Assembly (NCBI RefSeq): GCF_000178955.2
Contig: NC_016631.1
Span: 62,001-126,000, forward strand
Reading direction: 5' to 3'
Origin: Granulicella mallensis MP5ACTX8
GTDB taxonomy: Bacteria > Acidobacteriota > Terriglobia > Terriglobales > Acidobacteriaceae
DNA: 64,000 bases
Position 1 is the first letter of the stretch. Each line of letters starts with the position of its first letter. Positions 3,086 to 18,071 of this stretch are shown one piece after another. The notes below the pieces were generated by a model that was not told where the DNA came from, did not search any database, and saw only the letters and a program-made list of their open reading frames with translations. A program made the position numbers and the translations under genes.

Positions 3086-3883
3086 TCAACCATGGTGCGC
3101 GATATACGTCGCATGAATCTCGTTGCGCAGGCGTTCTGTCAGCGCCTCGGCATCACGTGTGGTCATGCCGATCGTAGAGATCGGCTCGCCGACGATCAGC
3201 TTCAACGGACGCGGACGTAGCGCATACACATGGATCGGCAATAGCTCATAGGTACCTACAAGCGTTAGCGGAACGAGCGGCACCTGGGCCTTGATGGCCA
3301 GCCACGCGGCGCCGGCGACCATCGTCTGCAGCTCACCCGTTGCGGCGCGGCCGCCTTCGGGAAAGATCACCAGCGGCATCCCGGCTTCCAGTGTCTTGAC
3401 GCCGCGGCCGAGGCTCGTGATGGCCGAGCGCGCGGAGCTCTGGTCGATGGGCACCTGTCCTGAACGGTCGAGATACCAGCCGATGAATGGGATCTTCCAT
3501 AGCGGAGCCTTCGCCAGGATGCGGAACTGGAACGGCAGCTTCGCGAAGAGCACGGGGGTGTCGTAGTAGCTGAGATGGTTGCTGGCGTAGACGGCGGTCT
3601 TGTGTGTCCGCAGCCGCTCGGCATTTTCGAGCGTAACCGGCGAGAGCGCGACCCGCAGCAACACGCGCGCCCACTGGCGGGCGATGAAGTGCTGCTGGCT
3701 GCCGTCCTTGTCCCACAGGCCGCAGGCGAGCGAGATCGTGCCGAAGAAGATCGTCGCAATCCCGACCAGCGGGATCAGCAGCAGGTACGAGAGCCAGCGC
3801 AGGGCGAAGGGCACGGGTGAACGCGGCGCGGGTTCGCGTTCCGTGTGTTCTTCAGGCTGAAGGGTTTCATTGGCTGCTGGCAT
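3086..3883 (-). CDS. plsC: 1-acyl-sn-glycerol-3-phosphate acyltransferase
   Basis: A 265-residue acyltransferase that adds the second acyl chain to lysophosphatidic acid at the inner membrane. A Glu/Pro-rich N-terminus leads into a hydrophobic segment (about residues 29-53) that would anchor it. The catalytic block NHLSYYD has the NHX4D motif, and IFPEGGRAATG carries the FPEG substrate-binding motif. The length fits the PlsC family. It begins with ATG and stands alone between two repeat elements. Acyl preference is unknown. Confidence 0.9.
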   Translation of the reverse strand: MPAANETLQPEEHTEREPAPRSPVPFALRWLSYLLLIPLVGIATIFFGTISLACGLWDKDGSQQHFIARQWARVLLRVALSPVTLENAERLRTHKTAVYASNHLSYYDTPVLFAKLPFQFRILAKAPLWKIPFIGWYLDRSGQVPIDQSSARSAITSLGRGVKTLEAGMPLVIFPEGGRAATGELQTMVAGAAWLAIKAQVPLVPLTLVGTYELLPIHVYALRPRPLKLIVGEPISTIGMTTRDAEALTERLRNEIHATYIAHHG

Positions 3884-3940
3884 CTATGGCTATGCTAAAC
3901 CGGGTCGTCGTGATTACACCAAACCTCGCAGAAGGCCCGT

Positions 3941-5876: not shown

Positions 5877-6734
5877 TTACCCGCTCTGCGCCACGCACAC
5901 CCGCCCGCCCTTACCACGCAGCAACAATCCATCGCTCCGCCCGCTGAAGTATCTAGCGGTCAGGGAGGTGCTATCGAGGTCTTCGACCACTCGCAATCCG
6001 GCCAGGGCGAGCTCCGTAGCCAGCGCCTCCGGCGTAAAGAATCGCTGAAACGGTTCACCCGACAACGCGACACGTTCGGACATCGAATCCAGCATCTGCT
6101 GCTCCACCGGAGGCAGGACCTCACGCGGCTGCGCGTAGTCGAAGATCACCTGGCTGCCTGCGGCAAAACTACCGAGCAACGTGGTCGTCGCACGAAAGGC
6201 CTCCAGCGTGAGGTACGGCACCACGCCGAGCCACGCGGTCACCGTCGGCAGGGTGCTGTCGAAGCCCGCGGCGTGCAGTTCTTCCGTCAACGACTGCCGC
6301 TCGAAGTCGACCGGGACAAACTGCATCGTCTCGGGAATCGCGATGCCCGCGGCAGCCAGGCACTCACGCTTCCAGGCCTGCGTCGCGGGGTGGTCGACCT
6401 CGAAGACCCGCACCTGAGGATGAGGATTGCGATAGGCAAAGGTGTCGAGCCCCGCCCCGAGAACGAGGTACTGTCGCGTGCCGTTGGCAGCAACGCTGTG
6501 GGAGAGCGTATCCTCCGCCAACCGCGCCCGCGCAACCATAAAGGCTCGCAACGCCGCCGAAAAGGGGCGCTTAATGCTGTTGGGAGTGCGGTTCAGCTCT
6601 TCGCGGTGCTCCGGCCCGAGGATGCGCACGGCGAGCGGGTCGTCAAAGACCAGCGGAGCGTCATCGTGGATCTGGTGTGCGGCGCGGCGCAGGGCTACGC
6701 GTAGTGCGGTGCGTGATGGCTGGGCTTCGTGCAT
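5877..6734 (-). CDS. class I SAM-dependent methyltransferase (LCM/TIGR00027-like)
   Basis: A 285-residue member of the leucine carboxyl methyltransferase-like group, whose bacterial members are mostly uncharacterised. The SAM-binding strand and loop is YLVLGAGLDTFAYR (about residue 90), followed by an acidic EVDHPATQ segment. The N-terminal AHQIHDDAPLVFDDPLA block is typical of the TIGR00027 group. It starts 10 bp after the accD stop on the same strand, so both may be on one mRNA. The target molecule cannot be read from the sequence. Confidence 0.82.
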   Translation of the reverse strand: MHEAQPSRTALRVALRRAAHQIHDDAPLVFDDPLAVRILGPEHREELNRTPNSIKRPFSAALRAFMVARARLAEDTLSHSVAANGTRQYLVLGAGLDTFAYRNPHPQVRVFEVDHPATQAWKRECLAAAGIAIPETMQFVPVDFERQSLTEELHAAGFDSTLPTVTAWLGVVPYLTLEAFRATTTLLGSFAAGSQVIFDYAQPREVLPPVEQQMLDSMSERVALSGEPFQRFFTPEALATELALAGLRVVEDLDSTSLTARYFSGRSDGLLLRGKGGRVCVAQSG

Positions 6735-7760: not shown

Positions 7761-8651
7761 ATGAAACAGGGAATCTCGACTCACGTCTTTCTGGCGCAAC
7801 GCCTCACGCCGGGGTTGCTCGATGCGCTCACGCGCGGTGGCGCCACCGCCGTGGAGGTCTTTGCCGCACGGCATCACTTCGATTACGCGGACCGCGGCGC
7901 CGTGCGTGAGTTGGCCAACTGGTTTCGCTCCAACAACGTCGACGCCTCGCTGCATATGCCGCTCTTCAGCAGCGACGAAGACTCCAACTGGAGCCGCCAC
8001 ACCGCACCTGTCATCAATCTCATCGACCTGAACAAGTCCACGCGCATCGAGGCCATGGACGAGGTCAAGCGCGCTCTCGAATCCGCCGAGCAGATACCGT
8101 TCCGCTCCTGCGTGATCCACCTCGGCCTCAAGGGCGACCGCTGGAACACGCGCGCGCTCGACGATTCGATGACCGCGATCGAACACCTCAAGGCCTTCTC
8201 CTCGCCGCTTGGCATGCAGTTGCTGCTCGAGAACCTGAACAACGAAGTCGCCACCCCGGCGCACCTGGTGGAGATCGTTCGCGCAGGCCACTTCGACAAC
8301 GTAGGCTTCTGCCTCGACACCGGCCACGCGAACCTCGTGGAACCGCAGCCCGAAACCCGCGACCAAGAAGCGAAAGACGGCATCGCACAGGCCTTCGAGG
8401 ACTTTGGCGACCGCATCACGGAGCTGCACCTGCACGACAACCTCGGCAACCGGCCCGAAAACGGCAAGGACGAGCACCTCTGGCCGGGGAGCGGAACGAT
8501 TGACTGGGATAGCGTCGCGAAGCGGATTGCGGCACTCAAGCAGCCTCCTGTGGGCATCCTCGAGATCGCTCATGAGCTTGGCGAGGATATGAAGCAGATC
8601 GAGACGGAGTTCCGGGCGGCTTGGAAGAAGCTTGGGGTGGTGGCGCAGTAA
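7761..8651 (+). CDS. sugar phosphate isomerase/epimerase-like TIM barrel
   Basis: A 296-residue xylose isomerase-like TIM-barrel protein (AP endonuclease 2 fold). Metal-site features are visible: LLLENLNNE (Glu), FCLDTGHAN (Asp and His), ELHLHDNLG (His and Asp) and ILEIAHE (Glu). These are the usual divalent-metal ligands. It may isomerise or epimerise a sugar, but the substrate is unknown. It is divergent from accD and shares the 152-bp gap with it. It is followed by a family B repeat. Confidence 0.8.
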   Translation: MKQGISTHVFLAQRLTPGLLDALTRGGATAVEVFAARHHFDYADRGAVRELANWFRSNNVDASLHMPLFSSDEDSNWSRHTAPVINLIDLNKSTRIEAMDEVKRALESAEQIPFRSCVIHLGLKGDRWNTRALDDSMTAIEHLKAFSSPLGMQLLLENLNNEVATPAHLVEIVRAGHFDNVGFCLDTGHANLVEPQPETRDQEAKDGIAQAFEDFGDRITELHLHDNLGNRPENGKDEHLWPGSGTIDWDSVAKRIAALKQPPVGILEIAHELGEDMKQIETEFRAAWKKLGVVAQ

Positions 8652-8678
8652 TAGCCGTTGTTTTTTTGTTTTTGCTCT

Positions 8679-8872
8679 TGCCTTTCTGGTTGTCATTCCG
8701 AGGCGCAGCGAGTGAACCTGCTTCCTCCCGTTCTTCGGTCGTATCACCAGAAAGCACGGGTATCACTAAAAGAGTGCAGCATTGCCGGAGCATTACGCAT
8801 GTGCCGGCATGGGCAAAAAACGGGAGGAAGCAGGTTCGCTCGTTTCACTCGGAATGACAGCCAGAAAAGCAA
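8679..8872. repeat. palindromic intergenic repeat, family B copy 3
   Basis: Begins CCTTTCTGGTTGTCATTCC-like and ends GGAATGACAGCCAGAAAAGC. The inner arms CCTGCTTCCTCCCG and CGGGAGGAAGCAGG are inverted. It fills the gap before asnS. Confidence 0.82.
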
Positions 8873-8914
8873 AGGCAACGGCAAATACAAGCCACCGCGT
8901 AAACTAGACATCTC

Positions 8915-10264
8915 ATGTCCACCGAAATAAACCCCGCTCCCGTCACGACCATCGCCACCCTCGGCCAGCACGAAGGCCAGACCATCACGCTCCGCGGCTG
9001 GCTCTACAACCTGCGCTCCTCGGGCAAGCTGCTCTTCCCGACCTTCCGCGACGGCTCCGGCACCATCCAGGGCATCGTCCCCAAGGCGGCGGTGGCGGAA
9101 GAGGTCTTCGAGACCCTCAAGAACCTCACGCTGGAGTCGAGTGTCGTCGTCACCGGCAAGGTCCGCGCCGATAGCCGCGCGCCCAGCGGCTTCGAACTCG
9201 ACGTCGAGAATGTCACCGTGACGCAGCGCATCGCCGACGAGACACCCTACCCTATCTCGCTCAAGGAGCACGGCGTCGACTTCCTCATGGAGCACCGCCA
9301 CCTCTGGCTGCGCACCCCGCGCCAGTCGGCGATCCTGCGCGTGCGCGCGACGATCATGCGGGCGGCGGCGGAGTACTTCGACACCAACGGCTTCATCCGC
9401 ACCGATCCACCGATTCTCACGCCCAATGCCTGCGAAGGAACCAGCGAGCTGTTCGAGATGGACTACTTCGACGACGACAAGGCCTACCTCACGCAGAGCG
9501 GCCAGCTCTATATCGAAGCCACGGCGCTCGCGCTGGGCAAGGTCTACTCCTTCGGCCCGACCTTCCGCGCGGAGAAGTCCAAGACCCGCCGCCACCTCAC
9601 GGAGTTCTGGATGATCGAACCCGAGGTCACCTACCTCGACCTCGACGGCCTGATGGGCCTGGCCGAGGGCTTCCTGACGCACATCGTCACGCGCGTGCTC
9701 GAAACCCATCGCGCCGACCTGAAGGTGATCGGCAAAGAGGTCTCCAAGCTGGAAGCCGTTGCCGCCCCGGGTGAGTTCCCGCGCCTCAGCTACGACGAAG
9801 CCCACCAGATGCTGGTCGAAGCCCACGCCAAGGGCCTGATCGAAAATGCGCACACCTACGGTGACGACTTCGGCTCGCCCGACGAGACCTATATCTCGAA
9901 CCAGTTCGATAAGCCGGTGATGGTGCACCGCTACCCGGCCGAGGTAAAGGCCTTCTACATGCAGCCTGATCCCAACGACCCGACCAAGGCCCTCTGCGTG
10001 GACGTGCTCGCGCCCGAAGGCTACGGCGAGATCATCGGCGGCTCACAGCGCGTAGACAGCTACGACCTGCTCAAGTCCCGCATCGAGCAGCACAACCTGC
10101 CGCTCGCGGCCTTCCAGTGGTATCTCGACCTGCGCAAGTACGGCAGCGTTCCGCACTCGGGCTTCGGTATGGGCATTGAGCGTGCCGTTGCGTGGATCTG
10201 CGGGTTAGAGCATGTGCGTGAGACGATTCCGTTCGCAAGGACGCTGAACAGGATCTACCCATGA
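8915..10264 (+). CDS. asnS: asparagine--tRNA ligase
   Basis: A 449-residue class IIb aminoacyl-tRNA synthetase that charges tRNA-Asn. An N-terminal OB-fold anticodon-binding domain ([27 protein letters not shown]) comes before the catalytic domain with motif 2 ([22 protein letters not shown]) and motif 3 ([13 protein letters not shown]). The ending [12 protein letters not shown] resembles the bacterial AsnRS ending rather than AspRS, and there is no GAD insertion domain. The next gene overlaps its stop codon. Confidence 0.92.
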
Positions 10265-10704
10265 TGAGTGACTACGCCAATCCACCCACTCCCGAAGTGC
10301 AACCATCGCATCGGGCAGTGGGCGGATGGCTGCTTTACTTCTGCATTGCGCTCACATTCCTCGGACCGTTCAAAATGGTCCAGATGTTTCAGACGTCAGA
10401 GGTCTGGTACATGATGATGATCTATGCCATTCTTGCGCTTACGAGCTTGGTGGCCGGTGTCCTGACTTGGTCCAGGTCAAACGCAGCTTTTCCGTGGCTT
10501 AGAATTCACTTGCTGGCACGCCTCTTCTATGGCTTCCTGCAGGTCTATTTCACCCTTCAATACTTCCAACATCCAAACCTCGGTCAGTCAAAAGCCATAC
10601 AAGAAGCCTTCTACTCCATGATCAACATCTTGGCGTCGATTGCCATCTTCCTCTATTTCCGTATCTCTTCGCGCGTCGACGAAACCTTTGGCAGAAATAT
10701 TTAG
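10261..10704 (+). CDS. small integral membrane protein, DUF2569-like
   Basis: A 147-residue protein with four predicted membrane helices (around residues 22-40, 48-68, 80-100 and 118-135). The opening [11 protein letters not shown] resembles the first helix of DUF2569-type proteins, a tentative match. The ATG overlaps the asnS stop (ATGATGA), so translation may be coupled; a second ATG lies at 10264. Function unknown. Confidence 0.7.
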
Positions 10705-10941
10705 TTAGTGTTGCGGACCTGCAGGCTTATCGCGTTTTGCGACAAGCGCGCATTCATGTCACAGCTCAAGCCGCTCTCGCCTATTGTCTGTGTCTTGCAT
10801 AAATCGGAAGGGCAGGGTTTCAACCCTGCCACAAATCCCGTGGCGAAGATATCTACCTCGCTGCCGCAGGCCAGAGTGAAGGCGAAGCCGGAACGACTAA
10901 TCTGCTTTTTGTCGGGCGCTCACGGTGTATTCTGAGCGCCT
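10705..10941. other. gap without a supported gene
   Basis: Contains a short inverted repeat (GGGCAGGGTTTCAACCCTGCC, about 10810-10830) of the kind seen as dispersed intergenic hairpins. A 75-codon open frame here has no ribosome-binding site and unconvincing composition. Confidence 0.5.
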
Positions 10942-11709
10942 ATGATCCGCCGCTGCCTCCTCGCTGCCGCAATCGCTCTAACGGTTACTTGTACCCTCGC
11001 GTCAACGCAGCTCATCCCCACCACCCTGCATCTACCCGAGACTAACGTCAACATCTCCATCCACGTCACGCTCCAGCCCGGTTTCGACAAATCCTTTCAC
11101 GCGATCCAGTTCCGCATAGACGGCCGCACCTACCGTCTCATCGCGAAGAGCGACCTCCAGTACCTCAGCAAGCCAGAGGGCCCAGGCCTGCAACCTGCCG
11201 ATCCCATCCGTGGTCTCGTTCTCGATCGTTCACGTCTCTTCTTCCTCGCGCACTACACCTCTGAGGCCAAACCTCATACTCTCCTCTTCTTCATTGGAGA
11301 CGCCGGGGCCAGCGATGCCGCGCCTGTTCTTGTCGTCGGCTTTCACGAAGATGGTTCGCCCTACAAAGTCCTCGAGCTCGATCAATTCGACACCTCGAAC
11401 TTCACTCAACTCGAAGATGGTTCGCCAGTCATCATAGGTAAAGCCACTCTCTCGCAAGCCTACTCAGAGGCAAGCAAGGATTCTGTCTACGCCACCACCT
11501 ACGATCCCTATGCGATTTACATCGTTCACCCGAACGAACCTGCCGAATACTCTCTTGTTGAATCCAAGCGCTATAACCAACTCCATTACGTTTGGGCGGG
11601 AACGAAATCGCGAGAAGACATCGCCGTAGTCTTCCACGATAAGAATCACCATCGGCCTTACATCGTCCCGGCGAAGGATCTCGGTAAGGTCTTTCCTAAA
11701 ACGCAATAA
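10942..11709 (+). CDS. secreted hypothetical protein
   Basis: A 255-residue protein with a clear signal peptide (MIRRCLLAAAIALTVTCTLA, cleavage near ALAST). The mature part is Ser/Thr- and Asp-rich with likely beta structure. I recognise no family. Codon use is less GC-biased than its neighbours, with many AT-ending codons in the C-terminal half, which may point to a different history. It is the last ordinary gene before the Y RNA array. Confidence 0.65.
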   Translation: MIRRCLLAAAIALTVTCTLASTQLIPTTLHLPETNVNISIHVTLQPGFDKSFHAIQFRIDGRTYRLIAKSDLQYLSKPEGPGLQPADPIRGLVLDRSRLFFLAHYTSEAKPHTLLFFIGDAGASDAAPVLVVGFHEDGSPYKVLELDQFDTSNFTQLEDGSPVIIGKATLSQAYSEASKDSVYATTYDPYAIYIVHPNEPAEYSLVESKRYNQLHYVWAGTKSREDIAVVFHDKNHHRPYIVPAKDLGKVFPKTQ

Positions 11710-11795
11710 TCGTTCCATAAAATAAAACTAAATATTTCTATGAATTCACTTGCCTTTTTCCTGAGTAACTGGCAAAGTAACATCTGCGTAGGAGC

Positions 11796-11877
11796 AGCCC
11801 GATGAAATATCAATCGCACAACACGATGCGTAGGTCCCCAGAGAGAATAAGTCTCTGCGGCGATCGCCGGGCTTTTT
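11796..11877 (+). ncRNA. candidate structured RNA with 3' terminator, upstream of the Y RNA array
   Basis: AGCCCG (11796-11801) can pair with CGGGCT (11868-11873), directly followed by a T run. Inside are an AGAGA/TCTCT hairpin (11840-11856) and a CGGC-GATC-GCCG hairpin (11858-11869). This could be a small RNA, a leader attenuator or simply the terminator of the upstream gene. It does not share the Y RNA consensus. Confidence 0.35.
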
Positions 11878-11940
11878 TCTTAATCTGGTCCTAGCCCTCG
11901 GCGGACGATCCTACGCACAATCGCACGCATAACTAGATCT

Positions 11941-12014
11941 ACCGGGTGGTGAAAGAGGACAGGTACTTCGACTGTCACTCGACCCATACCACTGTCTTCG
12001 CTGATTCCCCCGGT
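11941..12014 (+). ncRNA. Y RNA-like RNA 1, minimal form
   Basis: Outer helix ACCGGG (11941-11946) with CCCGGT (12009-12014). Internal loop with TGGTG on the 5' side and ATTCC on the 3' side. Inner helix GAGGACAG (11955-11962) with CTGTCTTC (11992-11999), one G-U pair. TACTTCG follows the inner helix, as in the larger RNAs. The 29-nt terminal loop has no tRNA-like part. Upstream of rsr and only 2 nt before RNA 2. If real, it may be a Ro-binding RNA without an effector module. Confidence 0.65.
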
Positions 12015-12016
12015 AG

Positions 12017-12110
12017 TCCTGTCAGTGGCGCACTTTATGGCTACTTCTGGCAAATCCGCAAGGATTGGGTTCGAATCCCATCTGCCATGACGGATTATTC
12101 CCTGACAGGA
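12017..12110 (+). ncRNA. Y RNA-like RNA 2, T-arm-like module without D-arm
   Basis: Outer helix TCCTGTCA (12017-12024) with TGACAGGA (12103-12110), perfect. GTGGCGCA and ATTATTCCC flank the internal loop as in the other RNAs. Inner helix around 12035-12041 with 12084-12090, then CTACTTC. The module has a GGCA/TGCC stem enclosing two hairpins: AATCC-GCAA-GGATT, with a GNRA tetraloop, and TGGG-TTCGAAT-CCCA, a T-arm mimic with the T-loop TTCGAAT. No D-arm is seen. The order (capped hairpin before T-arm) is reversed relative to RNAs 4 and 5. Confidence 0.75.
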
Positions 12111-12156
12111 ATGCGCTTCTCGCGCAGCCGCGGATCTGCGTCTGCACGAGAGTAAG

Positions 12157-12312
12157 TTCCAGTGGTGATAGAGACGAGTTACTTCCACACCTAACTACGC
12201 AGGCCCGGAAGGCCTGCCGGAGAGAAAGACACTGTGGAACGGAGGCGTTGCCTCGAAGCACAAGGTTCCGTAGTTGCACTTACTCCGAACTCGTCTCGGT
12301 AGTTCCCTGGAA
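12157..12312 (+). ncRNA. Y RNA-like RNA 3, large multibranched module
   Basis: Outer helix TTCCAG (12157-12162) with CTGGAA (12307-12312). Inner helix GAGACGAGTT (12171-12180) with AACTCGTCTC (12288-12297), 10 perfect pairs. TGGTG and GTTCC flank the internal loop and ACTTCC follows the inner helix. The module is closed by AACTACG (12193-12199) with CGTAGTT (12269-12275). It has a GCAGGCC/GGCCTGC hairpin (12199-12217) and a GGAAC/GTTCC arm holding a GAGGC-GTT-GCCTC hairpin. No T-loop or D-arm is visible, so the cargo would differ from tRNA-binding enzymes. Confidence 0.75.
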
Positions 12313-12341
12313 TACGCATCGTTTGCGATAGAGAAAAGTTT

Positions 12342-12472
12342 GGCCGGTGGCGCAGAGAACAGTTACTTCGCCTATGACGCAGATGGTCGCAGGTTCGAGC
12401 CCTGCCACGGGTGTAAGTCCGTGTAGCTCAGTGGGTAGAGCATCTAGTCTGTTCTCGATTTATTCCCCGGCC
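12342..12472 (+). ncRNA. yrlA: YrlA-type Y RNA 4 with permuted tRNA mimic
   Basis: Outer helix GGCCGG (12342-12347) with CCGGCC (12467-12472); inner helix GAGAACAG (12355-12362) with CTGTTCTC (12449-12456). TGGCG and ATTCC flank the internal loop and TTACTTCG follows the inner helix. The module runs in permuted tRNA order: T-arm GCAGG-TTCGAGC-CCTGC (12389-12405), acceptor-like stem CACGGGT/GTCCGTG (12406-12423, two wobble pairs) closed by GTAA, a GNRA tetraloop, then D-arm GCTC-AGTGGGTA-GAGC (12426-12441). AGAT/ATCT can form an anticodon-stem-like helix. This is the layout known for bacterial YrlA RNAs that bind Rsr. Confidence 0.88.
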
Positions 12473-12519
12473 AATAACCCGTTCCAGCGAGAGGGCTGGT
12501 TAGAAAGAAGAGCTTTGTT

Positions 12520-12858
12520 ATGGGCAAGGCCTATGTCAAAGGCGGCACACCGGTAGGTTCGGTGTCGCTATGCAGAACGTGTACGAGTGCGCAGATCATG
12601 ACCGGCTATCGCGAGTCGGAGTTGATTACGATCTGCGACAACGTTCATCCCAACATCGTAGTTCCGTTCAATATCTATGAGTGCACGGGTTACTACGACA
12701 AGAATCGTCCCAGTTGGGACGAGATGAAGAAGCTCGCTATCAATGTGGCTCCCGGTCCTTTGAAACCCGTAGGTTTCAAAGTCGGCATCGGCTTCCGCGA
12801 AGCAGCGGTCACTGTCGGAGAACCCGATGAGGACGAGTACGACGATGACGATGATTAA
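12520..12858 (+). CDS. small Cys-containing protein with acidic tail, between Y RNAs
   Basis: A 112-residue protein I do not recognise. It has Cys residues at CRTC (a CxxC pair, about residues 18-21), ICD and YECTG, which could bind a metal. The tail is almost only Asp and Glu (EDEYDDDDD). ATG at 12520 is preceded by GAAGAG about eight bases upstream. It begins 47 nt after RNA 4 and ends 6 nt before RNA 5, so it seems co-transcribed with the array and rsr. It is intronless and not a shadow of another gene. It may be a protein partner of the RNP; this is inference. Confidence 0.65.
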   Translation: MGKAYVKGGTPVGSVSLCRTCTSAQIMTGYRESELITICDNVHPNIVVPFNIYECTGYYDKNRPSWDEMKKLAINVAPGPLKPVGFKVGIGFREAAVTVGEPDEDEYDDDDD

Positions 12859-12864
12859 CACCTT

Positions 12865-12993
12865 CGCCGGTGGCGTAGGTAACAGCTCCTTCGGACTAAG
12901 GTGTTGCAGGTTCGAATCCTGCCACAAGCGCAAGCTCGTGTAGCTCAACTGGCAGAGCACTTGGCTATGCTGTTGCCACTTTGTTCCCCGGCG
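12865..12993 (+). ncRNA. yrlA: YrlA-type Y RNA 5 with permuted tRNA mimic
   Basis: Outer helix CGCCGG (12865-12870) with CCGGCG (12988-12993); inner helix GGTAACAGC (12878-12886) with GCTGTTGCC (12969-12977). TGGCG and GTTCC flank the internal loop; the loop-proximal TACTTCG is altered to TCCTTCG. T-arm GCAGG-TTCGAAT-CCTGC (12906-12922); acceptor-like stem CACAAGC/GCTCGTG (12923-12940, one mismatch) closed by GCAA, a GNRA tetraloop; D-arm GCTC-AACTGGCA-GAGC (12943-12958). CTAAG (12896-12900) can pair with CTTGG (12960-12964) as an anticodon stem mimic. It ends just before the rsr ribosome-binding site. Confidence 0.9.
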
Positions 12994-13027
12994 ATTTTTG
13001 TAAGTGCACTTTATAAGGAGGTGCGTG

Positions 13028-14341
13028 ATGAAACTGAACATCCTGAAGTTTGCCCATCTCGCTCGGCCCCGCACCCATGAGGGTGCGCCGGCTGTAGCCA
13101 TCACCCCGGAGCTTGCGCTGCGGCGCAGCGTGCTCGCCTGCATGCTGTGGGAGAACGAGTTCTATGAGGACGGCGTCGCCATCGCGGGACGCATCCGCGA
13201 ACTCGTGCCGAAGGTCGCGGCAGAAAAGGTTGCCGCGCTCGCGGTCGAGGCCCGCACGGCGATGAAGCTGCGCCATGCGCCGCTGCTGCTCGTCCGCGAG
13301 ATGGCGCGCCACGCCACGCACCGCGCGTTTGTAGCGGAGACGCTGGCTCGCGTGATCCAGCGTGCCGACGAGCTCGCCGAGTTCGTCGCAATCTACTGGG
13401 CCGATGGCCGTGCACCTCTCTCGGGGCAGGTGAAGAAGGGTCTTGCAGCGGCGTTCCCGAAGTTCGACGAGTACGCGCTCGCGAAGTACGATCGCGCGGG
13501 CGTTGTTCGGCTTCGCGATGTGCTGTTCCTGTGCCACGCGAAGCCGCGAGATGCGGAGCAGGCTGCGGTCTGGAAGCGGCTGGTCGATGGTGAGCTTGCG
13601 ACGCCCGATACCTGGGAGGTCGCACTCTCGGCCAGTGCGGGCGACAAGCGTGCGCACTGGGAGCGTCTGCTTGCAGAGAACAAGCTTGGCGCGCTCGCCC
13701 TGCTGCGCAACCTTCGCAACATGAAGGCTGCGGGAGTCGACGAGAAGCTGGTGGTCTCAGCTCTCGGCACGATGAAGACCGATCGCGTTCTGCCCTTCCG
13801 CTTTCTTGCTGCGGCGCGTTATGCCCCGCAGTGGGAGGAGGAGCTGGAGGCTGCGATGTTCCGCGCAGTCGCCGAGCGCGAAAAGCTTGTCGGTCACACG
13901 GTGCTGCTGGTCGACGTCTCAGGCAGCATGGTCGTGCCTCTCTCTCGCCGTTCGGAGATGCTGCGCACCGACGCGGCCTACGGTCTTGCGGTGCTGCTGC
14001 GCGAGATCGCGGAGAAGGTGAGCGTCTATACCTTCTCGGTTGGTGCTGTTCGGGTTCCGCCGCGGCGTGGCTTTGCACTGCGCGATGCGATGGAGGCGAG
14101 CCAGCCGCACGGAGGGACGAATCTCGGTGCGGCGCTGGAGGCGGTAAAGGAGAAGTACGACCGCATCCTCGTCATCACGGACGAACAGTCACACGATCGC
14201 GTACCCGCGCCGAAGGGCCGTGGCTATGTGATCAACGTAGCCAGCGCGCGCAACGGCGTAGGCTACGGAGCGTGGTCGCACATCGACGGCTGGAGCGAGG
14301 CCGTCATCGAGTACGTCCGTGAGTTGGAGCGGGCGGAATAA
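13028..14341 (+). CDS. rsr: Ro60-related protein Rsr (TROVE plus vWA domains)
   Basis: A 437-residue ortholog of the Ro60 autoantigen. Ro60 is a ring of helical repeats that binds Y RNAs on its outer face and misfolded RNA in its central hole. In bacteria Rsr acts with Y RNA in RNA processing or decay, often with a 3' exonuclease such as PNPase. The TROVE region is about residues 10-280. The C-terminal von Willebrand A domain has an intact metal site: DVSGS (D296), T364 in GGTNLG and D385 in ITDEQ. The start is the ATG at 13028 behind a strong AAGGAGGTG; an upstream in-frame start at 13004 lacks one. Y RNA genes lie immediately upstream, which supports the call. No rtcB or pnp lies in the window. 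Confidence 0.92.
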   Translation: MKLNILKFAHLARPRTHEGAPAVAITPELALRRSVLACMLWENEFYEDGVAIAGRIRELVPKVAAEKVAALAVEARTAMKLRHAPLLLVREMARHATHRAFVAETLARVIQRADELAEFVAIYWADGRAPLSGQVKKGLAAAFPKFDEYALAKYDRAGVVRLRDVLFLCHAKPRDAEQAAVWKRLVDGELATPDTWEVALSASAGDKRAHWERLLAENKLGALALLRNLRNMKAAGVDEKLVVSALGTMKTDRVLPFRFLAAARYAPQWEEELEAAMFRAVAEREKLVGHTVLLVDVSGSMVVPLSRRSEMLRTDAAYGLAVLLREIAEKVSVYTFSVGAVRVPPRRGFALRDAMEASQPHGGTNLGAALEAVKEKYDRILVITDEQSHDRVPAPKGRGYVINVASARNGVGYGAWSHIDGWSEAVIEYVRELERAE

Positions 14342-14364
14342 CTAATGGAACCACAAAGCCTTGT

Positions 14365-14408
14365 GGTGCCTGTCTTAGGTGGGTTGCCTCACTCCTAAGA
14401 TAGGCACC
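14365..14408 (+). terminator. hairpin after rsr
   Basis: GGTGCCTGTCTTAGG and CCTAAGATAGGCACC form a 15-pair stem with one wobble and a 14-nt loop. There is no following T tract, so it may act as an mRNA end stabiliser as well as a terminator. Confidence 0.5.
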
Positions 14409-14468
14409 GGGCATGAATCACTGGCACGAATACACCAAAATATGCCATCCTTACACATCGGAGTCTTC

Positions 14469-14672
14469 ATGCGAACCAACATCGAAATCGACGACCAACT
14501 GATGGCCGAGGCTTTGCGTTCGAGTGGTGAACCCACCAAGCGTGCCGCCGTCGAAGCGGCCTTGCGCCTGCTGATCCAAACCAAGGCGCAGGGCGGCATC
14601 CGCAAGCTTCGCGGCAAGATTCAATGGGAAGGCGATCTCGCGGAACTTCGCCGGAGCCGCGTTCGGGACTGA
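14469..14672 (+). CDS. vapB: type II antitoxin, VapB family
   Basis: A 67-residue antitoxin that neutralises the VapC ribonuclease and represses its own operon. The N-terminus MRTNIEIDDQLMAEALR is the ribbon-helix-helix DNA-binding part of the VapB group, followed by the toxin-binding tail (KAQGGIRKLRGKIQW). The ATG at 14469 is chosen because homologs begin MRTN; the open frame extends upstream without similarity. The stop lies 2 bp before vapC. Confidence 0.9.
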   Translation: MRTNIEIDDQLMAEALRSSGEPTKRAAVEAALRLLIQTKAQGGIRKLRGKIQWEGDLAELRRSRVRD

Positions 14673-14674
14673 TC

Positions 14675-15076
14675 ATGGTTATCGTCGACACGACGGTCTG
14701 GATTGATTACCTCGCGGGCAGAACCAATGCGCAGACCGCCTGGTTGGATGCCCAGGTAGACCATCAGCGCCTTGGGCTTACGGATCTTATCCTGTGCGAG
14801 ATTCTGCAGGTGATTCGCGCTGATGCCGATCTCAAAAAGGTTCGTCGCGAACTCTCGCGCTTCGAAGTCTTTTCTACGGGTGGGGAGACTCTTGCAGTAG
14901 CCTCGGCGCAGAACTATCGGGCACTGCGGCGTCGCGGTATCACCGTTCGCACGACGATCGACTGCCTCATCGCCACCTTCTGCCTCCGCGAGGGGCACTC
15001 GCTATTGCATCATGACCACGACTTCAATCCCTTCGAGAAGCATCTTGGATTGCGCGTGGTTCACCCGGTGACATAG
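14675..15076 (+). CDS. vapC: type II toxin, VapC-family PIN-domain ribonuclease
   Basis: A 133-residue PIN-domain RNase; VapC toxins usually cleave tRNA or rRNA when free of antitoxin. The acidic site is visible: VDTTVW (Asp4), an ILCEILQ Glu (about residue 43) and TIDCLIA plus HDHDF in the C-terminal half. The ATG at 14675 is 2 bp after vapB. Its position beside a Ro60 RNP locus is notable but functional linkage is only a guess. Confidence 0.92.
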   Translation: MVIVDTTVWIDYLAGRTNAQTAWLDAQVDHQRLGLTDLILCEILQVIRADADLKKVRRELSRFEVFSTGGETLAVASAQNYRALRRRGITVRTTIDCLIATFCLREGHSLLHHDHDFNPFEKHLGLRVVHPVT

Positions 15077-15089
15077 GGCCGCACGATGA

Positions 15090-15260
15090 CTAGTGCAGGC
15101 CCCGCGTAACCAGAAAAATAAACAAGGCTATAACGCCCCCGACCGTCCCAATCAGCCCTGTCGCGATAAAGATCGTCGCGCCGCGCTTTTTCTCAGGAGT
15201 GGGTGGGGTAATGCCTACCGTGATGATGAAGCCATCGACAATGCCCTGGATGAGACCCAT
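15090..15260 (-). CDS. small single-span membrane protein
   Basis: A 56-residue open frame with one membrane helix (about residues 30-50, IFIATGLIGTVGGVIALFIF) after a positively charged EKKRG. The ATG at 15260 has GAGGT about eight bases upstream. It converges on vapC with a 13-bp gap. No family recognised. Short length leaves some doubt. Confidence 0.5.
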   Translation of the reverse strand: MGLIQGIVDGFIITVGITPPTPEKKRGATIFIATGLIGTVGGVIALFIFLVTRGLH

Positions 15261-15370
15261 CTTCGTGTACCTCAGTTAAAGAGATAACGGATCGCATCCT
15301 AAGCCATCGCTCCGATCTTGCTGCGGCTTGACGATTCTTGCGGGAACTATGATGGAGCAGGAGACAGCCA

Positions 15371-16345
15371 ATGCCTCGGCCCGGGAAAATAGCGGACAGC
15401 AGGACGCGGCAGGACGCAGGCCCGCTTGCGTCTCCTTCTTCCGCAAAACCCGATCTCCCCTCCGCGAAACGGGTATCCGTGCTGGTCGGAACGAGGTCCG
15501 TACCGCTCCTTCCCGGCCGGCCGCTCATCGACAACTCGCGCTCGCCCTGGACCGGCCTGGTGATGGAGAAGCACCGTCTCGGTGCCGTCGCCATCCCCGT
15601 GCATGAGCACGATACCTTCTGCCTGCACCTGCAGACCAGCGGTCCGGTCGAGATGGACTGGAACTCCTCCGGGCGCAGCGGGCGGGTGCACTCGGGTGTG
15701 GGAAATCTCATCTTTCTCAGCCCCGGAACGCGCGACAGCATGCTTTGGCACGGCCCCTCGCAGCGCATCGTCACCTCCATCCAGCCGGCGCTGCTGCGGC
15801 AGGCCGCTGAGCAGATGGAGCTCAAAGGCCTGTACGACTTCGACAACCAGTGGTCGTTTCAGGACGAGCAACTGCAGCTTCTATTAACAGAAATGGATCG
15901 TGAGATGGCTGCGGGCTGGCCGATGGGTTCTCTCTACGGCGACCTGCTGGGGATGTCCCTGTCGATTGCGCTGATCCGCAAGTACGGACACACCTCGTCA
16001 GCGCTGGTTCCGCTGAAGGGCGGCCTCTCCCAGCCGCGCCTCAAGCATGTGCTTGCCTATATCGAAGAGAGCCTCGACCGCGATCTTCGTTTGCAGGATC
16101 TGGCGGAGCTGGCAGGCCTGAGCCCCTTCCACTTTGCGCGTTCCTTCCGGCAGAGCATCGGTGCGACGCCGCATCAGTACATCGTGCAGCGCAGGGTGCA
16201 GCGTGCGAAGGAACTTCTGCTGCGGCCGGAGTGGAGCATCGAACAGGTCGCCTCCGCCACGGGATTTGCAGGCGCGAGCCAGTTTTCGAGGGTCTTTCGG
16301 CAGAGCGCGGGCGTTACGCCGACGGAGTGGCGACGAAAGGTTTAG
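15371..16345 (+). CDS. AraC-family transcriptional regulator
   Basis: A 324-residue regulator. The N-terminal part (about residues 60-170) resembles a cupin-like effector domain. The C-terminal 100 residues hold two helix-turn-helix motifs: LQDLAELAGLSPFHFARSFR and IEQVASATGFAGASQFSRVF, ending with the usual AGVTPTEWRR. The effector and target are unknown; the nearest neighbours are not an evident regulon. Confidence 0.9.
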   Translation: MPRPGKIADSRTRQDAGPLASPSSAKPDLPSAKRVSVLVGTRSVPLLPGRPLIDNSRSPWTGLVMEKHRLGAVAIPVHEHDTFCLHLQTSGPVEMDWNSSGRSGRVHSGVGNLIFLSPGTRDSMLWHGPSQRIVTSIQPALLRQAAEQMELKGLYDFDNQWSFQDEQLQLLLTEMDREMAAGWPMGSLYGDLLGMSLSIALIRKYGHTSSALVPLKGGLSQPRLKHVLAYIEESLDRDLRLQDLAELAGLSPFHFARSFRQSIGATPHQYIVQRRVQRAKELLLRPEWSIEQVASATGFAGASQFSRVFRQSAGVTPTEWRRKV

Positions 16346-16359
16346 CTTTTGTTTTTCGT

Positions 16360-16520
16360 CGTCATCCTGAGCCGTAGGCGAAGGACCCCCGCATTGGGGT
16401 AGCCACGTATGCTCTAGGCAGGCAAAGAGCGCGACAGATGGTGCCTGCATAGGCCGTATTCGCTCTCTCCGGCATCGTGCAAAATGCGGGGGTCCTTCAG
16501 CTACGCTTCAGGATGACGAC
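16360..16520. repeat. palindromic intergenic repeat, family A copy 2
   Basis: Shares with 2912-3070 the left end CGTCATCCTGAGCCGTAGG and a right end ending CTTCAGGATGACGACGAAA, plus the segment GGCATCGTGCAAAATGCGGG. The centre differs. It separates the AraC and cytochrome P460 genes. Confidence 0.8.
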
Positions 16521-16549
16521 GAAAGGCAAGATTGTCGGTAGTACAAAAC

Positions 16550-17041
16550 CTACGGCATCACCGCAGCCCGTTGCGCCAGCAGATACGCCGTACGCTCGTT
16601 CGGTGTAACACCCGCTTCTTCATCCACCTGCTTCAACGGCGAACCCTCATATCGCTGGTAGGTAAAGTGCTGGTCCGGAGCGATCGTCACATACTCGACC
16701 GACTTCGCCGCCGCCGGAATATTCCCGCCAAACCAGCGCGGATCTTCCTGCTGCGTCCACGTCACCACCGACAGTGCCGACCCGGCAGGATAGCCCGACT
16801 GCGCCCCCGTCCGGGCATATTGCACGGCAGTATCGTTGCCGTAGAGCGTCGACATCGTTCCGGCGTTCTTGTCGATCCACGAGGTAATGACGCGGTTCTG
16901 CAGGGGATTCGAGGGCAACTCACTGCCCAGCATCGCGTTGGTGTTCAGAGCCGTCACCACGCGCGGATTCGTTTTGGTGCAACCAGCAAGACCGCACATC
17001 AGAACTACACCGGGAGCTAACAGCATCAGTCGCACTCTCAC
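16550..17041 (-). CDS. cytochrome P460-like lipoprotein
   Basis: A 163-residue lipoprotein: the signal ends LMCGLAGC, with Cys as the lipidation site. The mature part (NRVITSWIDKNAGTMSTLYGND, then SVVTWTQQEDPRWFGG) looks like a P460-type domain, but no CxxCH haem motif is present. It overlaps the upstream haem protein by ATGA (17038-17041), so the two are surely co-translated. Probably a periplasmic partner of that protein. Confidence 0.7.
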   Translation of the reverse strand: MRVRLMLLAPGVVLMCGLAGCTKTNPRVVTALNTNAMLGSELPSNPLQNRVITSWIDKNAGTMSTLYGNDTAVQYARTGAQSGYPAGSALSVVTWTQQEDPRWFGGNIPAAAKSVEYVTIAPDQHFTYQRYEGSPLKQVDEEAGVTPNERTAYLLAQRAAVMP

Positions 17042-17994
17042 TGTTGACCTCCCAGCGGCATCGTGTAGACGTAGTCGTTTGGACGTACCGGTTCATGGCA
17101 GCCGATGCACTCGTTGGTGAAGTCTGCGTTCTTGCCATAGGGTTTCAGGTCCATGCCGCGCCAGCGACCCCAACCCCAGCCTTTGCTTGAGGCGTACTTC
17201 TTGCTGTCGCGAATCATGAGCTCCACCTGGATGAAGGCGCCGGTCTGTACGGCTCCCTTGCCATCCGGCTGCTGGGCCCATGCGACCTTGGCGAAAGCTG
17301 TGCCATCCGGCCACGGATTGATGTGGTGCTCGGCGATGGCCTTGATCGCAACATCGTTGCCCAGGATCTCGCGCATCGTGTGGTTGTCGGGGCGATCGGT
17401 GCTGCTGATGGCCTTCCAGTTCTTATAGTCCGGCAGGAACTCGACGCCGTTGAACTCGGCCTGCACCTTCAACGGCGCGCCACTGGCTGTGATCCAGCCC
17501 TTGTACTGTGCATCAGCCGCACTGGTATCGGCTGCCGGAGCCGCACCCGCGGGCGGCATCAGATAGTCGCGCAGCACCTTCAGGTTCTCGGCCGAAACCG
17601 CGGCCCCCGGATGTACCCGCAGATACGACGGCAGCGGCATCGCGCCCATCTGAATCATGTTCACGGCTTCGAACAGCGCGCCCTTCTGCTGGGCGGCGGG
17701 GAGCTTGCCGATCTCGGAGAAGTTCAGGTGCGCCCGCGCCTCCTTTACGTCTTTGTTCACAAGCCAGTACGCGGGCACCACCTGGTCGAACCACGGCAGC
17801 TTCGTCTCATTGGAGTGGCAGCTATAGCAGGACTGCCGCAGCACAGCGCGAACCTCCGGCGGAGCCTGAAGCTCCGCCGTGACCGGAGGGTTGGTCAGCG
17901 TGGGGCGAACAAATTGCAGGCCAACAAAGACCAGGCCCGCAATCAGTGCGATCCAGAGAACAGCTCGAACTCGAGCCCCATACGCCGATGCCAT
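17038..17994 (-). CDS. haem-binding plus cytochrome P460 domain protein
   Basis: A 318-residue c-type haem protein. One N-terminal membrane helix (about residues 10-28) anchors it. The Haem_bd domain has CYSCH near residue 55 followed by ETKLPWFDQVVPAYWLV, the usual pattern. The P460 part covers about residues 160-310 and ends with a second haem motif CIGCHEPV. P460 cytochromes oxidise small nitrogen compounds in some bacteria; here no substrate can be named. ATG at 17994 has GAGAGG six bases upstream. Confidence 0.85.
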   Translation of the reverse strand: MASAYGARVRAVLWIALIAGLVFVGLQFVRPTLTNPPVTAELQAPPEVRAVLRQSCYSCHSNETKLPWFDQVVPAYWLVNKDVKEARAHLNFSEIGKLPAAQQKGALFEAVNMIQMGAMPLPSYLRVHPGAAVSAENLKVLRDYLMPPAGAAPAADTSAADAQYKGWITASGAPLKVQAEFNGVEFLPDYKNWKAISSTDRPDNHTMREILGNDVAIKAIAEHHINPWPDGTAFAKVAWAQQPDGKGAVQTGAFIQVELMIRDSKKYASSKGWGWGRWRGMDLKPYGKNADFTNECIGCHEPVRPNDYVYTMPLGGQQ

Positions 17995-18071
17995 GCCGAA
18001 CCTCTCATCTGGTGAATCGTAGTCAGATCAAATAGACGGCTCGATCGCAGGAATAAGATGCTTAGCTGCCG

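Follow-up and report, generated by a model that had tools for sequence, protein, structure and literature searches.

The window analysed here is a 64-kb stretch of the genome of Granulicella mallensis MP5ACTX8 (NC_016631.1, positions 62001-126000), in whose own numbering coordinates are given below. It contains rsr, the gene of the Ro60 ortholog, preceded by an array of five predicted Y RNAs that have one lower stem in common and carry different, mostly tRNA-like heads. The array, its stem and its heads are conserved in relatives, where they are linked to rsr and where genes for tRNA repair recur nearby. The explanation that we consider probable is that the Rsr locus makes a set of Y RNAs, in which one shared stem is combined with different heads, each meeting a different tRNA-handling enzyme.

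The RNA array and the rsr gene

The five RNAs lie on the + strand, RNA1 at 11939-12016, RNA2 at 12017-12110, RNA3 at 12156-12313, RNA4 at 12340-12474 and RNA5 at 12864-12994, with predicted lengths of about 78, 94, 158, 135 and 131 nt. The gaps between them are 0, 45, 26 and 389 nt, which corrects the spacing of 2-50 nt given in the first-pass annotation of this DNA, and RNA5 is separated from rsr by 33 nt. The longest gap contains an intact open reading frame (ORF) of 112 amino acids, on which the first-pass annotation is silent.

A descriptor built from an outer helix strand, TGGYG, an inner helix, TTCC and the closing outer helix strand finds exactly these five elements on the two strands of the window, whereas 20 first-order Markov shuffles contain none; an earlier, less strict form had one extra match in the window, on the minus strand. 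The outer helices of the five RNAs have 7-9 base pairs and the inner helices 7-10. The five outer helices, the TGGYG and TTCC motifs and the inner helices had all been recognised correctly in the first-pass annotation, as had the TACTTC of RNAs 1-4, in place of which RNA5 reads TCCTTC.

The rsr gene (13028-14341, + strand) is an intact ORF with a TROVE domain above the Pfam cut-off (5.8e-15, 55.8 bits; cut-off 23), and its product is 99% identical to Rsr of Granulicella mallensis X5P3. Its earlier description as an intact TROVE-vWA gene stands in its first part; the vWA-like region scores below the curated cut-offs (VWA_2 26.4 bits, cut-off 27; vWA_Ro60 21.2 bits, cut-off 27.7).

Conservation of the array and of the shared stem

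A scan of genome contigs gave 42 rsr loci from Acidobacteriota and Alphaproteobacteria (Asticcacaulis, other Caulobacterales, Hyphomicrobiaceae, Devosia and others), the related genomes not being independent of one another. On the + strand of these loci, 112 elements match the refined descriptor, 110 upstream and 2 downstream of rsr, against 1 on the minus strand and none in three shuffle rounds of one strand. With the descriptor relaxed, 23 further candidates appear, compared with 3 on the minus strand; 22 of the 23 were kept, L018:3763-3893 being dropped as unlike the others. With the five of the window, the total is 137 elements in 40 loci (39 of the 42 and the window). Where 4 kb upstream of rsr is covered (34 loci, the window included), 1, 2, 3, 4, 5 and 6 elements are present in 2, 6, 7, 10, 7 and 2 loci, that is, at least three in 26 of them, and a multi-RNA array is not special to this genome. 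A held-out set of 19 rsr regions from genomes of the same family, 5 of which overlap the earlier loci, provided 14 new loci. Twelve of these contain together 41 elements upstream of rsr, with 1 match on the minus strand; 4 further elements inside rsr were excluded, and L144 and L148, in which little DNA upstream of rsr is covered, have none.

RNAalifold gives three RNA classes a common layout, in which an outer helix is followed by one bulged U, a GG/CC pair step, an internal loop and the inner helix. Both partners of a pair have changed in 15 of the 18 pairs of the short class (25 RNAs), in 24 of the 43 pairs of the RNA3 class (16 RNAs) and in 28 of the 38 pairs of the RNA4 class (22 RNAs). 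In the RNA4 class, 95.2% of cells are paired, compared with 80.1% in shuffles and 42-51% when partners are slid. Pairing at 94 to 115 of 115 per position in the descriptor set is partly a product of construction, as the descriptor demands outer and inner pairing. Since the Rsr-stem pairs are thus required from the start, the helices outside that stem carry most weight. In the RNA4 class the T arm is paired in 100% of cells, the acceptor stem in 94.5% and the D arm in 97%, with both-sided changes in 4 of 5, 4 of 5 and 2 of 3 pairs, respectively. In the RNA3 class, both-sided changes are seen in the inner hairpins as well, as between columns 92-96 and 151-155, where each pair has them in 4 to 8 sequences. 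The descriptor and the comparison with relatives together bear out the original view of a multi-Y-RNA Rsr locus whose fold is kept while its sequence changes.

The motif TACTTC stands right after the 5' strand of the inner helix in 61 of 115 RNAs, whichever head they carry, and a loose version of it in 106 of 115, both counted without a chance control. A factor shared by all the RNAs may recognise it.

A script sorted the 137 elements into classes, the labels being ours: 29 of class S (up to 81 nt), 29 of class V (a T arm and no D arm), 42 of class P (T arm, acceptor, then D arm), 7 of class D (a tRNA cut in the D loop) and 30 of class L (no T loop), the last of which mixes RNA3-like RNAs with others. 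RNA1 belongs to class S, RNA2 to V, RNA3 to L, and RNA4 and RNA5 to P. Several loci show all or part of one order, S-V-L-P with P or D following before rsr. The window and L002 read SVLPP, L008 reads SVLPD, L005 and L007 SVPD, L023 SVVLPP, and L018 SVVLVP. Other acidobacterial loci deviate (L019 SLPV, L028 SLLPV, L015 SLDDV, L009 SLV, L010 SLL), and Asticcacaulis loci have PSLP (L036 and L040), PSLL, PLSP or PPL.

Linkage to rsr was followed with covariance models in 100 genomes of the family, of which 24 have an Rsr match, some of them fragmentary. This is the check by which the first-pass annotation had asked to be judged, and the strong matches in related genomes are confined to rsr loci, so that the outcome it had named as refuting did not arise. 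At 50 bits or more, the RNA4 model (R1) has 22 matches in 16 genomes, each of which shares a contig with rsr and lies no more than about 7 kb upstream of it. The RNA3 model (R2) has 27 such matches in 15 genomes, which again are all upstream of rsr on its contig and of which six exceed 110 bits. Some of the matched genomes are the sources of the models themselves. Below 50 bits, the RNA4 model also matches tRNAs and other sequences in genomes without rsr, so that its raw tally of 60 genomes in 100 is not meaningful. In the genome of G. mallensis MP5ACTX8 itself, neither model has a match of 50 bits or more outside the array, and the one weaker match falls at tRNA genes. A model of the short class, applied to 10 of the 14 new loci and to the window, has matches in every one of them, 38 in total; four are in the window, where RNA3 is missed.

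The heads of the RNAs

RNA1 is an Rsr-type stem that carries an anticodon stem-loop, TCGA-CTGTCAC-TCGA (11968-11982), the loop of which, CTGTCAC, is that of tRNA-Asp(GTC). When the anticodon loops of 48 tRNAs of this genome and 31 of Asticcacaulis AC402 are taken as reference, seven-base hairpin loops identical to real anticodon loops are present in 7 of 25 short RNAs (shuffled mean 0.05, maximum 1), in 9 of 90 longer RNAs (mean 0.22, maximum 2) and in 8 of 41 held-out elements (mean 0.10, maximum 2, 500 rounds). In the short RNAs passing a positional test (seven-base loop, U33, purine at 37, paired stem), the triplets are GTC, GTT, GTG, GTA, GCT, CCA, TGA, TAG, GAA, GAG, TCC and AAT, and G34-U35 is present in 12 of the 15 acidobacterial ones and in none of the 6 alphaproteobacterial ones. 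An anticodon arm is not claimed for the L-class RNAs, whose 7-nt hairpins mostly have no U33.

The head of RNA2 consists of a hairpin, AATCC-GCAA-GGATT (12053-12066), and a T arm (12067-12079) on an Rsr-type stem. RNA3 carries on its Rsr-type stem a conserved multi-hairpin domain without tRNA features. The earlier statement that only two of the RNAs carry a tRNA mimic was incorrect: RNA1 is an anticodon stem-loop mimic and RNA2 has a T arm, and therefore four of the five heads are tRNA-like.

RNA4 has an Rsr-type stem and the head of a circularly permuted tRNA, with an anticodon arm at 12367-12383 (one C.A mismatch), a T arm at 12389-12405, a capped acceptor stem and a D arm at 12426-12441. 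The order in RNA4-like RNAs is anticodon arm, variable region, T arm, 3' strand of the acceptor, small loop, 5' strand of the acceptor and D arm; the Rsr stem is therefore placed between the D arm and the anticodon arm. RNA5 has D, T and capped acceptor arms and a short hairpin with no true anticodon loop, and in layout it is the nearest of the five to known YrlA. In 22 aligned RNA4-like RNAs, position 37 is A in all but one, which has G, position 38 is always A or C, and positions 34-36 vary. Position 33 is T in 20 of the 22 as aligned and in all 22 after correction of two rows shifted by one base; this is not an unbiased rate, because the alignment was compiled by visual selection of RNA4-like sequences (21 of the 42 in class P, and one from L010, which the script had put in class L).

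The permuted order is seen by ARAGORN. Sixty-three heads with a T-loop motif, drawn from the 115 strict elements rather than from the 137, and several of them RNA3-type heads that merely contain GGTTC, gave no tRNA call as linear sequences and 40 when circularised. Shuffled heads gave none in five rounds, and heads in which the T arm was kept and the rest shuffled gave 5, 7, 7, 10 and 12. For RNA4 a call is made in 137 trims, most commonly His(atg) (66). The Rfam YrlA model (RF02553) scores 43.4 bits with RNA4 and 37.8 bits with RNA5, both below its gathering score of 69, and RNAs 1-3 have no YrlA match even at an E value of 10. When RNA4 is aligned to the YrlA model, most of its anticodon arm is held in an 18-nt insertion. 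At the gathering score, YrlA has no match in the window or in the loci of 15 relatives, so that such RNAs go unannotated; no Rfam model matches the window at its gathering score.

One Y RNA, in L019, contains a part (3871-3924) that exceeds the Rfam tRNA cut-off with 31.1 bits, and may therefore be annotated as a tRNA gene. In L023, Acido-Lenti-1 RNA is matched at 2270-2316 and 6149-6195, one match being above the cut-off and the other just below it.

Genes and sites around the array

A search for repair genes covered 62 sequences, 5 of them repeats, with flanks of about 4 kb, the upstream one reaching up to 7 kb in L140. In the 57 distinct loci, RtcB is near rsr in 9, Hen1 together with Pnkp in 4, and either in 12. 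In the held-out locus L140, a group of Y RNAs precedes the genes for RtcB, Hen1 (TIGR04074) and Pnkp (TIGR04075), after which come one more Y RNA and rsr.

The 112-aa ORF between RNA4 and RNA5 (12520-12858, + strand) belongs to an unnamed family of 465 proteins with a conserved Cys and an acidic tail, found in rsr clusters of Acidobacteriota; the protein has no Pfam or NCBIfam match. Its AlphaFold model (mean pLDDT 49.3) was not used, and the search for a solved relative gave none (best E 1.7). The family is present in 21 of the 100 genomes, and in 17 of these an Rsr match is on the same contig, the one in G041 being a fragment with a stop. The exceptions are G019, G023, G028 and, strongly, G099. 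In G028 (C8), RtcB adjoins a gene of the 112-aa family where there is no Rsr; in G041 (C3), the Rsr fragment adjoins such a gene, and in G070 (C42) a 47-residue Rsr match adjoins RtcB.

Directly 3' of rsr in the window is a VapB/VapC toxin-antitoxin pair (14469-15076). It was discarded as a partner of the array, since among the loci searched it recurs only in the near-identical strain L002. A gene for a BCS1-like AAA ATPase is near the RNAs and rsr in 8 distinct loci (L012, L014, L016, L017, L021, L025, L141 and L142). A protein of 265-288 amino acids is common to the rsr clusters of L013 (2697-3560), L016 and L136, the copies in L013 and L016 having no Pfam match.

Two short sequences recur before the first RNA. 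CCTACG is found 22-59 nt 5' of it in 8 of 25 acidobacterial loci (0.6 expected, maximum 4), namely in the window (11910-11915), L002, L005, L006, L007, L008, L009 and L028, and is possibly a promoter element of the array. In 8 of 13 alphaproteobacterial loci (L029, L031, L032, L034, L035, L036, L040 and L042; 0.025 expected, maximum 2), a GTTGC-N-GCAAC palindrome lies within 120 nt 5' of the first RNA, and is likely an operator of the array. Two terminator-like sites in 11700-13060, both on the minus strand, are about what chance gives (shuffled mean 1.3).

Possible function of the array

By combining these observations with what is known of Y RNAs, it is possible to outline how the locus might work. 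In published accounts, the lower stem of a Y RNA binds Rsr and a tRNA-like head is an effector domain (PMC8394870, PMC4726728), and one TROVE protein, which has a tRNA-like partner, has been termed a platform for RNA repair (PMC7824862). The array would be transcribed and processed into discrete RNAs, and the common lower stem, with its outer helix, bulged U, GG/CC, internal loop and inner helix, would be the grip of Rsr. Rsr would then most probably be loaded with one or another of the RNAs. Four of the heads would present different surfaces of a tRNA, namely an anticodon stem-loop, a T arm with a hairpin, a complete permuted cloverleaf with anticodon arm and capped acceptor, and the D, T and acceptor arms only, while the head of RNA3 would present a conserved fold that is not tRNA-like. 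Each head would bring Rsr to a different tRNA-handling enzyme, or occupy that enzyme, and these contacts would serve tRNA surveillance or repair. The earlier suggestion of RNA adaptors for different enzymes is thus a plausible one.

Several observations weigh against this description. Binding of Rsr by the shared stem is assumed from the resemblance of the stems. Folded singly, RNA1, RNA2, RNA4 and RNA5 are only mildly better than shuffles (z -1.62, -2.08, -1.86 and -1.36), RNA3 alone clearly beating them (z -4.32; the stretches folded deviate by a few bases from the coordinates given); the case rests on comparison and not on energy. No helix of the RNA4 class is weaker than the anticodon arm, in which 82.9% of cells are paired and 2 of 5 pairs show both-sided change. 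In RNA4 of the window this arm is mismatched, its anticodon is AUG, and the automatic search chose another hairpin there. Among 52 class-P RNAs, a script found just 22 with a seven-base loop, U33 and a purine at 37 before the T arm (shuffled mean 3.9, maximum 9); it missed L006, L007 and L134, seen by eye, and passed the doubtful L017 and L146. The positional test was passed by just 21 of 42 short RNAs (29 of class S and 13 held-out; two passes in L145 are doubtful), a count made without a shuffle control, and the failing RNAs have loops of other sizes or no U33. Three of the 42 rsr loci (L004, L022 and L037), each covered for less than 1 kb upstream, have no element. A scan with the promoter consensus found no promoter-like site in 11700-13060. 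Finally, no repair gene stands beside rsr in the window (RtcB is absent from 8001-18000), and the sole RtcB match of the genome is far from rsr.

The more specific proposals differ in what the heads would do. In one of them, the anticodon heads of RNA1 and RNA4 would be decoys or sensor substrates for anticodon nucleases, held by Rsr, with the cleaved tRNAs being handed to decay or to repair by RtcB, Hen1 and Pnkp. The loop frame (U33, A37, C or A at 38) is kept while the triplet 34-36 varies among relatives, and anticodon heads are present in both Acidobacteriota and Alphaproteobacteria. The G34-U35 of 12 of the 15 acidobacterial canonical loops, absent from the 6 alphaproteobacterial ones, is of the type found in tRNA-Asp, Asn, His and Tyr, the set that colicin E5 cuts, and it is in the same direction that RtcB or Hen1 with Pnkp lies near rsr in a fifth of the distinct loci. 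The Salmonella rsr operon responds to tRNA fragments cleaved in the anticodon loop, and its authors offer YrlA as a competitive inhibitor of a nuclease as one possibility; YrlA itself, however, was not cleaved in Salmonella (PMC7790460). The Pnkp1-Rnl-Hen1 complex is described as repairing ribotoxin-cleaved RNA (PMC4411300). Against the bait stand the half of the short RNAs without a canonical anticodon loop and the lack of any nuclease tied to the locus, the downstream vapBC recurring as narrowly as described above. Nor do the short and permuted RNAs of a locus differ in anticodon more often than by chance: read by hand, 0 of 13 loci share one, with about 0.85 expected, which is not significant (an automatic version of this comparison picked T loops and was discarded). 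We regard anticodon bait as possible but on balance doubtful, and the fuller picture, in which Rsr holds exchangeable tRNA fragments, among them free-standing anticodon stem-loops of fixed loop frame and changing triplet, as nuclease baits or sensors linked to RtcB or Pnkp/Hen1 repair in many of its relatives, as a little more doubtful still. If true, Rsr would carry a panel of tRNA decoys that coevolves with the toxins it encounters.

The heads might instead be substrates of TruB, Dus or Tgt, so that the RNAs are modified and stabilised or the enzymes are brought to Rsr-bound RNA. Tgt reads U33-G34-U35, and this element is what 12 of the 15 acidobacterial canonical-loop short RNAs contain; its absence from all 6 alphaproteobacterial ones argues the other way, as does RNA3 with no tRNA feature. 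YrlA is modified by DusA and TruB (PMC8394870). Such docking is a tentative proposal, on a par with the fuller bait picture. It is less likely, although tethering of Rsr to PNPase is the worked-out role in Deinococcus (PMC4726728, PMC8394870), that all the RNAs of the array tether Rsr to PNPase and differ by drift or dosage alone. Across acidobacterial genera the same head classes recur, largely in the same order; covariation is seen inside every aligned class; and retention of U33 and A37 is not expected from drift alone. Decayed or rearranged tRNA genes, or chance hairpins, are a very improbable source of the array. They would account for the weak Rfam tRNA matches of RNA4 (15.9 bits) and RNA5 (15.3 bits; cut-off 29) and for the L019 Y RNA that passes this cut-off. 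Against them, ARAGORN calls no tRNA gene in the window, the stretch of RNA4 from anticodon to T arm is identical to the closest tRNA of its own genome at only 31 of 45 positions, without gaps, and the strand, position and shuffle controls, the covariation outside the Rsr stem and the rsr linkage of the strong model matches all point the other way.

We return to a set of Y RNAs with one stem and several heads as the probable explanation. To our knowledge, the roles of bacterial Y RNA heads beyond PNPase tethering are an open question, and five heads on one grip in one small locus would make head function testable RNA by RNA. Through Y RNAs with anticodons, Ro60 would be directly connected with damage to anticodons and its repair.

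Comparison with known systems

The array has two marks of bacterial Y RNAs, being encoded beside rsr and having a terminal stem with a conserved internal loop. It is already established that bacteria are not limited to one Y RNA and that YrlA is a tRNA mimic (PMC8394870, PMC7790460). The novelty of an array with anticodon-bearing Y RNAs is provisional and rests in part on Rfam; a literature search by title and start of abstract, which did not cover the key bacterial Y RNA papers, gave no report of anticodon arms in Y RNAs.

Like YrlA (RF02553), the RNAs lie beside rsr and have the lower stem, and RNA4 and RNA5 share with it the T arm, capped acceptor and D arm in permuted order. RNAs 1-3, in contrast, lack this YrlA-type domain, and the RNA4-type RNAs have an extra anticodon arm where the Rfam model has none. 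Wang et al. (2018) and Chen et al. (2014) are said to have described YrlA as having no anticodon loop because the Y stem takes its place.

The rotated order of segments recalls the circularly permuted tRNA genes of archaea and algae, which are processed into working tRNAs; here, however, the Rsr stem is attached at the cut and the acceptor end is closed off. As described for the Salmonella rsr-yrlBA-rtcBA operon (PMC7790460), Rsr is combined with more than one Y RNA and, in some relatives, with tRNA-repair neighbours. The loci described here differ in having more RNAs each and, in some relatives, Hen1 with Pnkp, and the window differs in having no RtcB beside rsr (the search did not extend to rtcA). 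The Ro60-binding stem of vertebrate Y RNAs is likewise a helix broken by a single bulged pyrimidine (PMC4726728), here a U, the likeness being one of layout only and not of sequence. With the Deinococcus Y RNA and RYPER (PMC4726728, PMC8394870), the locus shares a single Rsr and a Y RNA with a predicted effector-binding head, but here one locus provides several heads.

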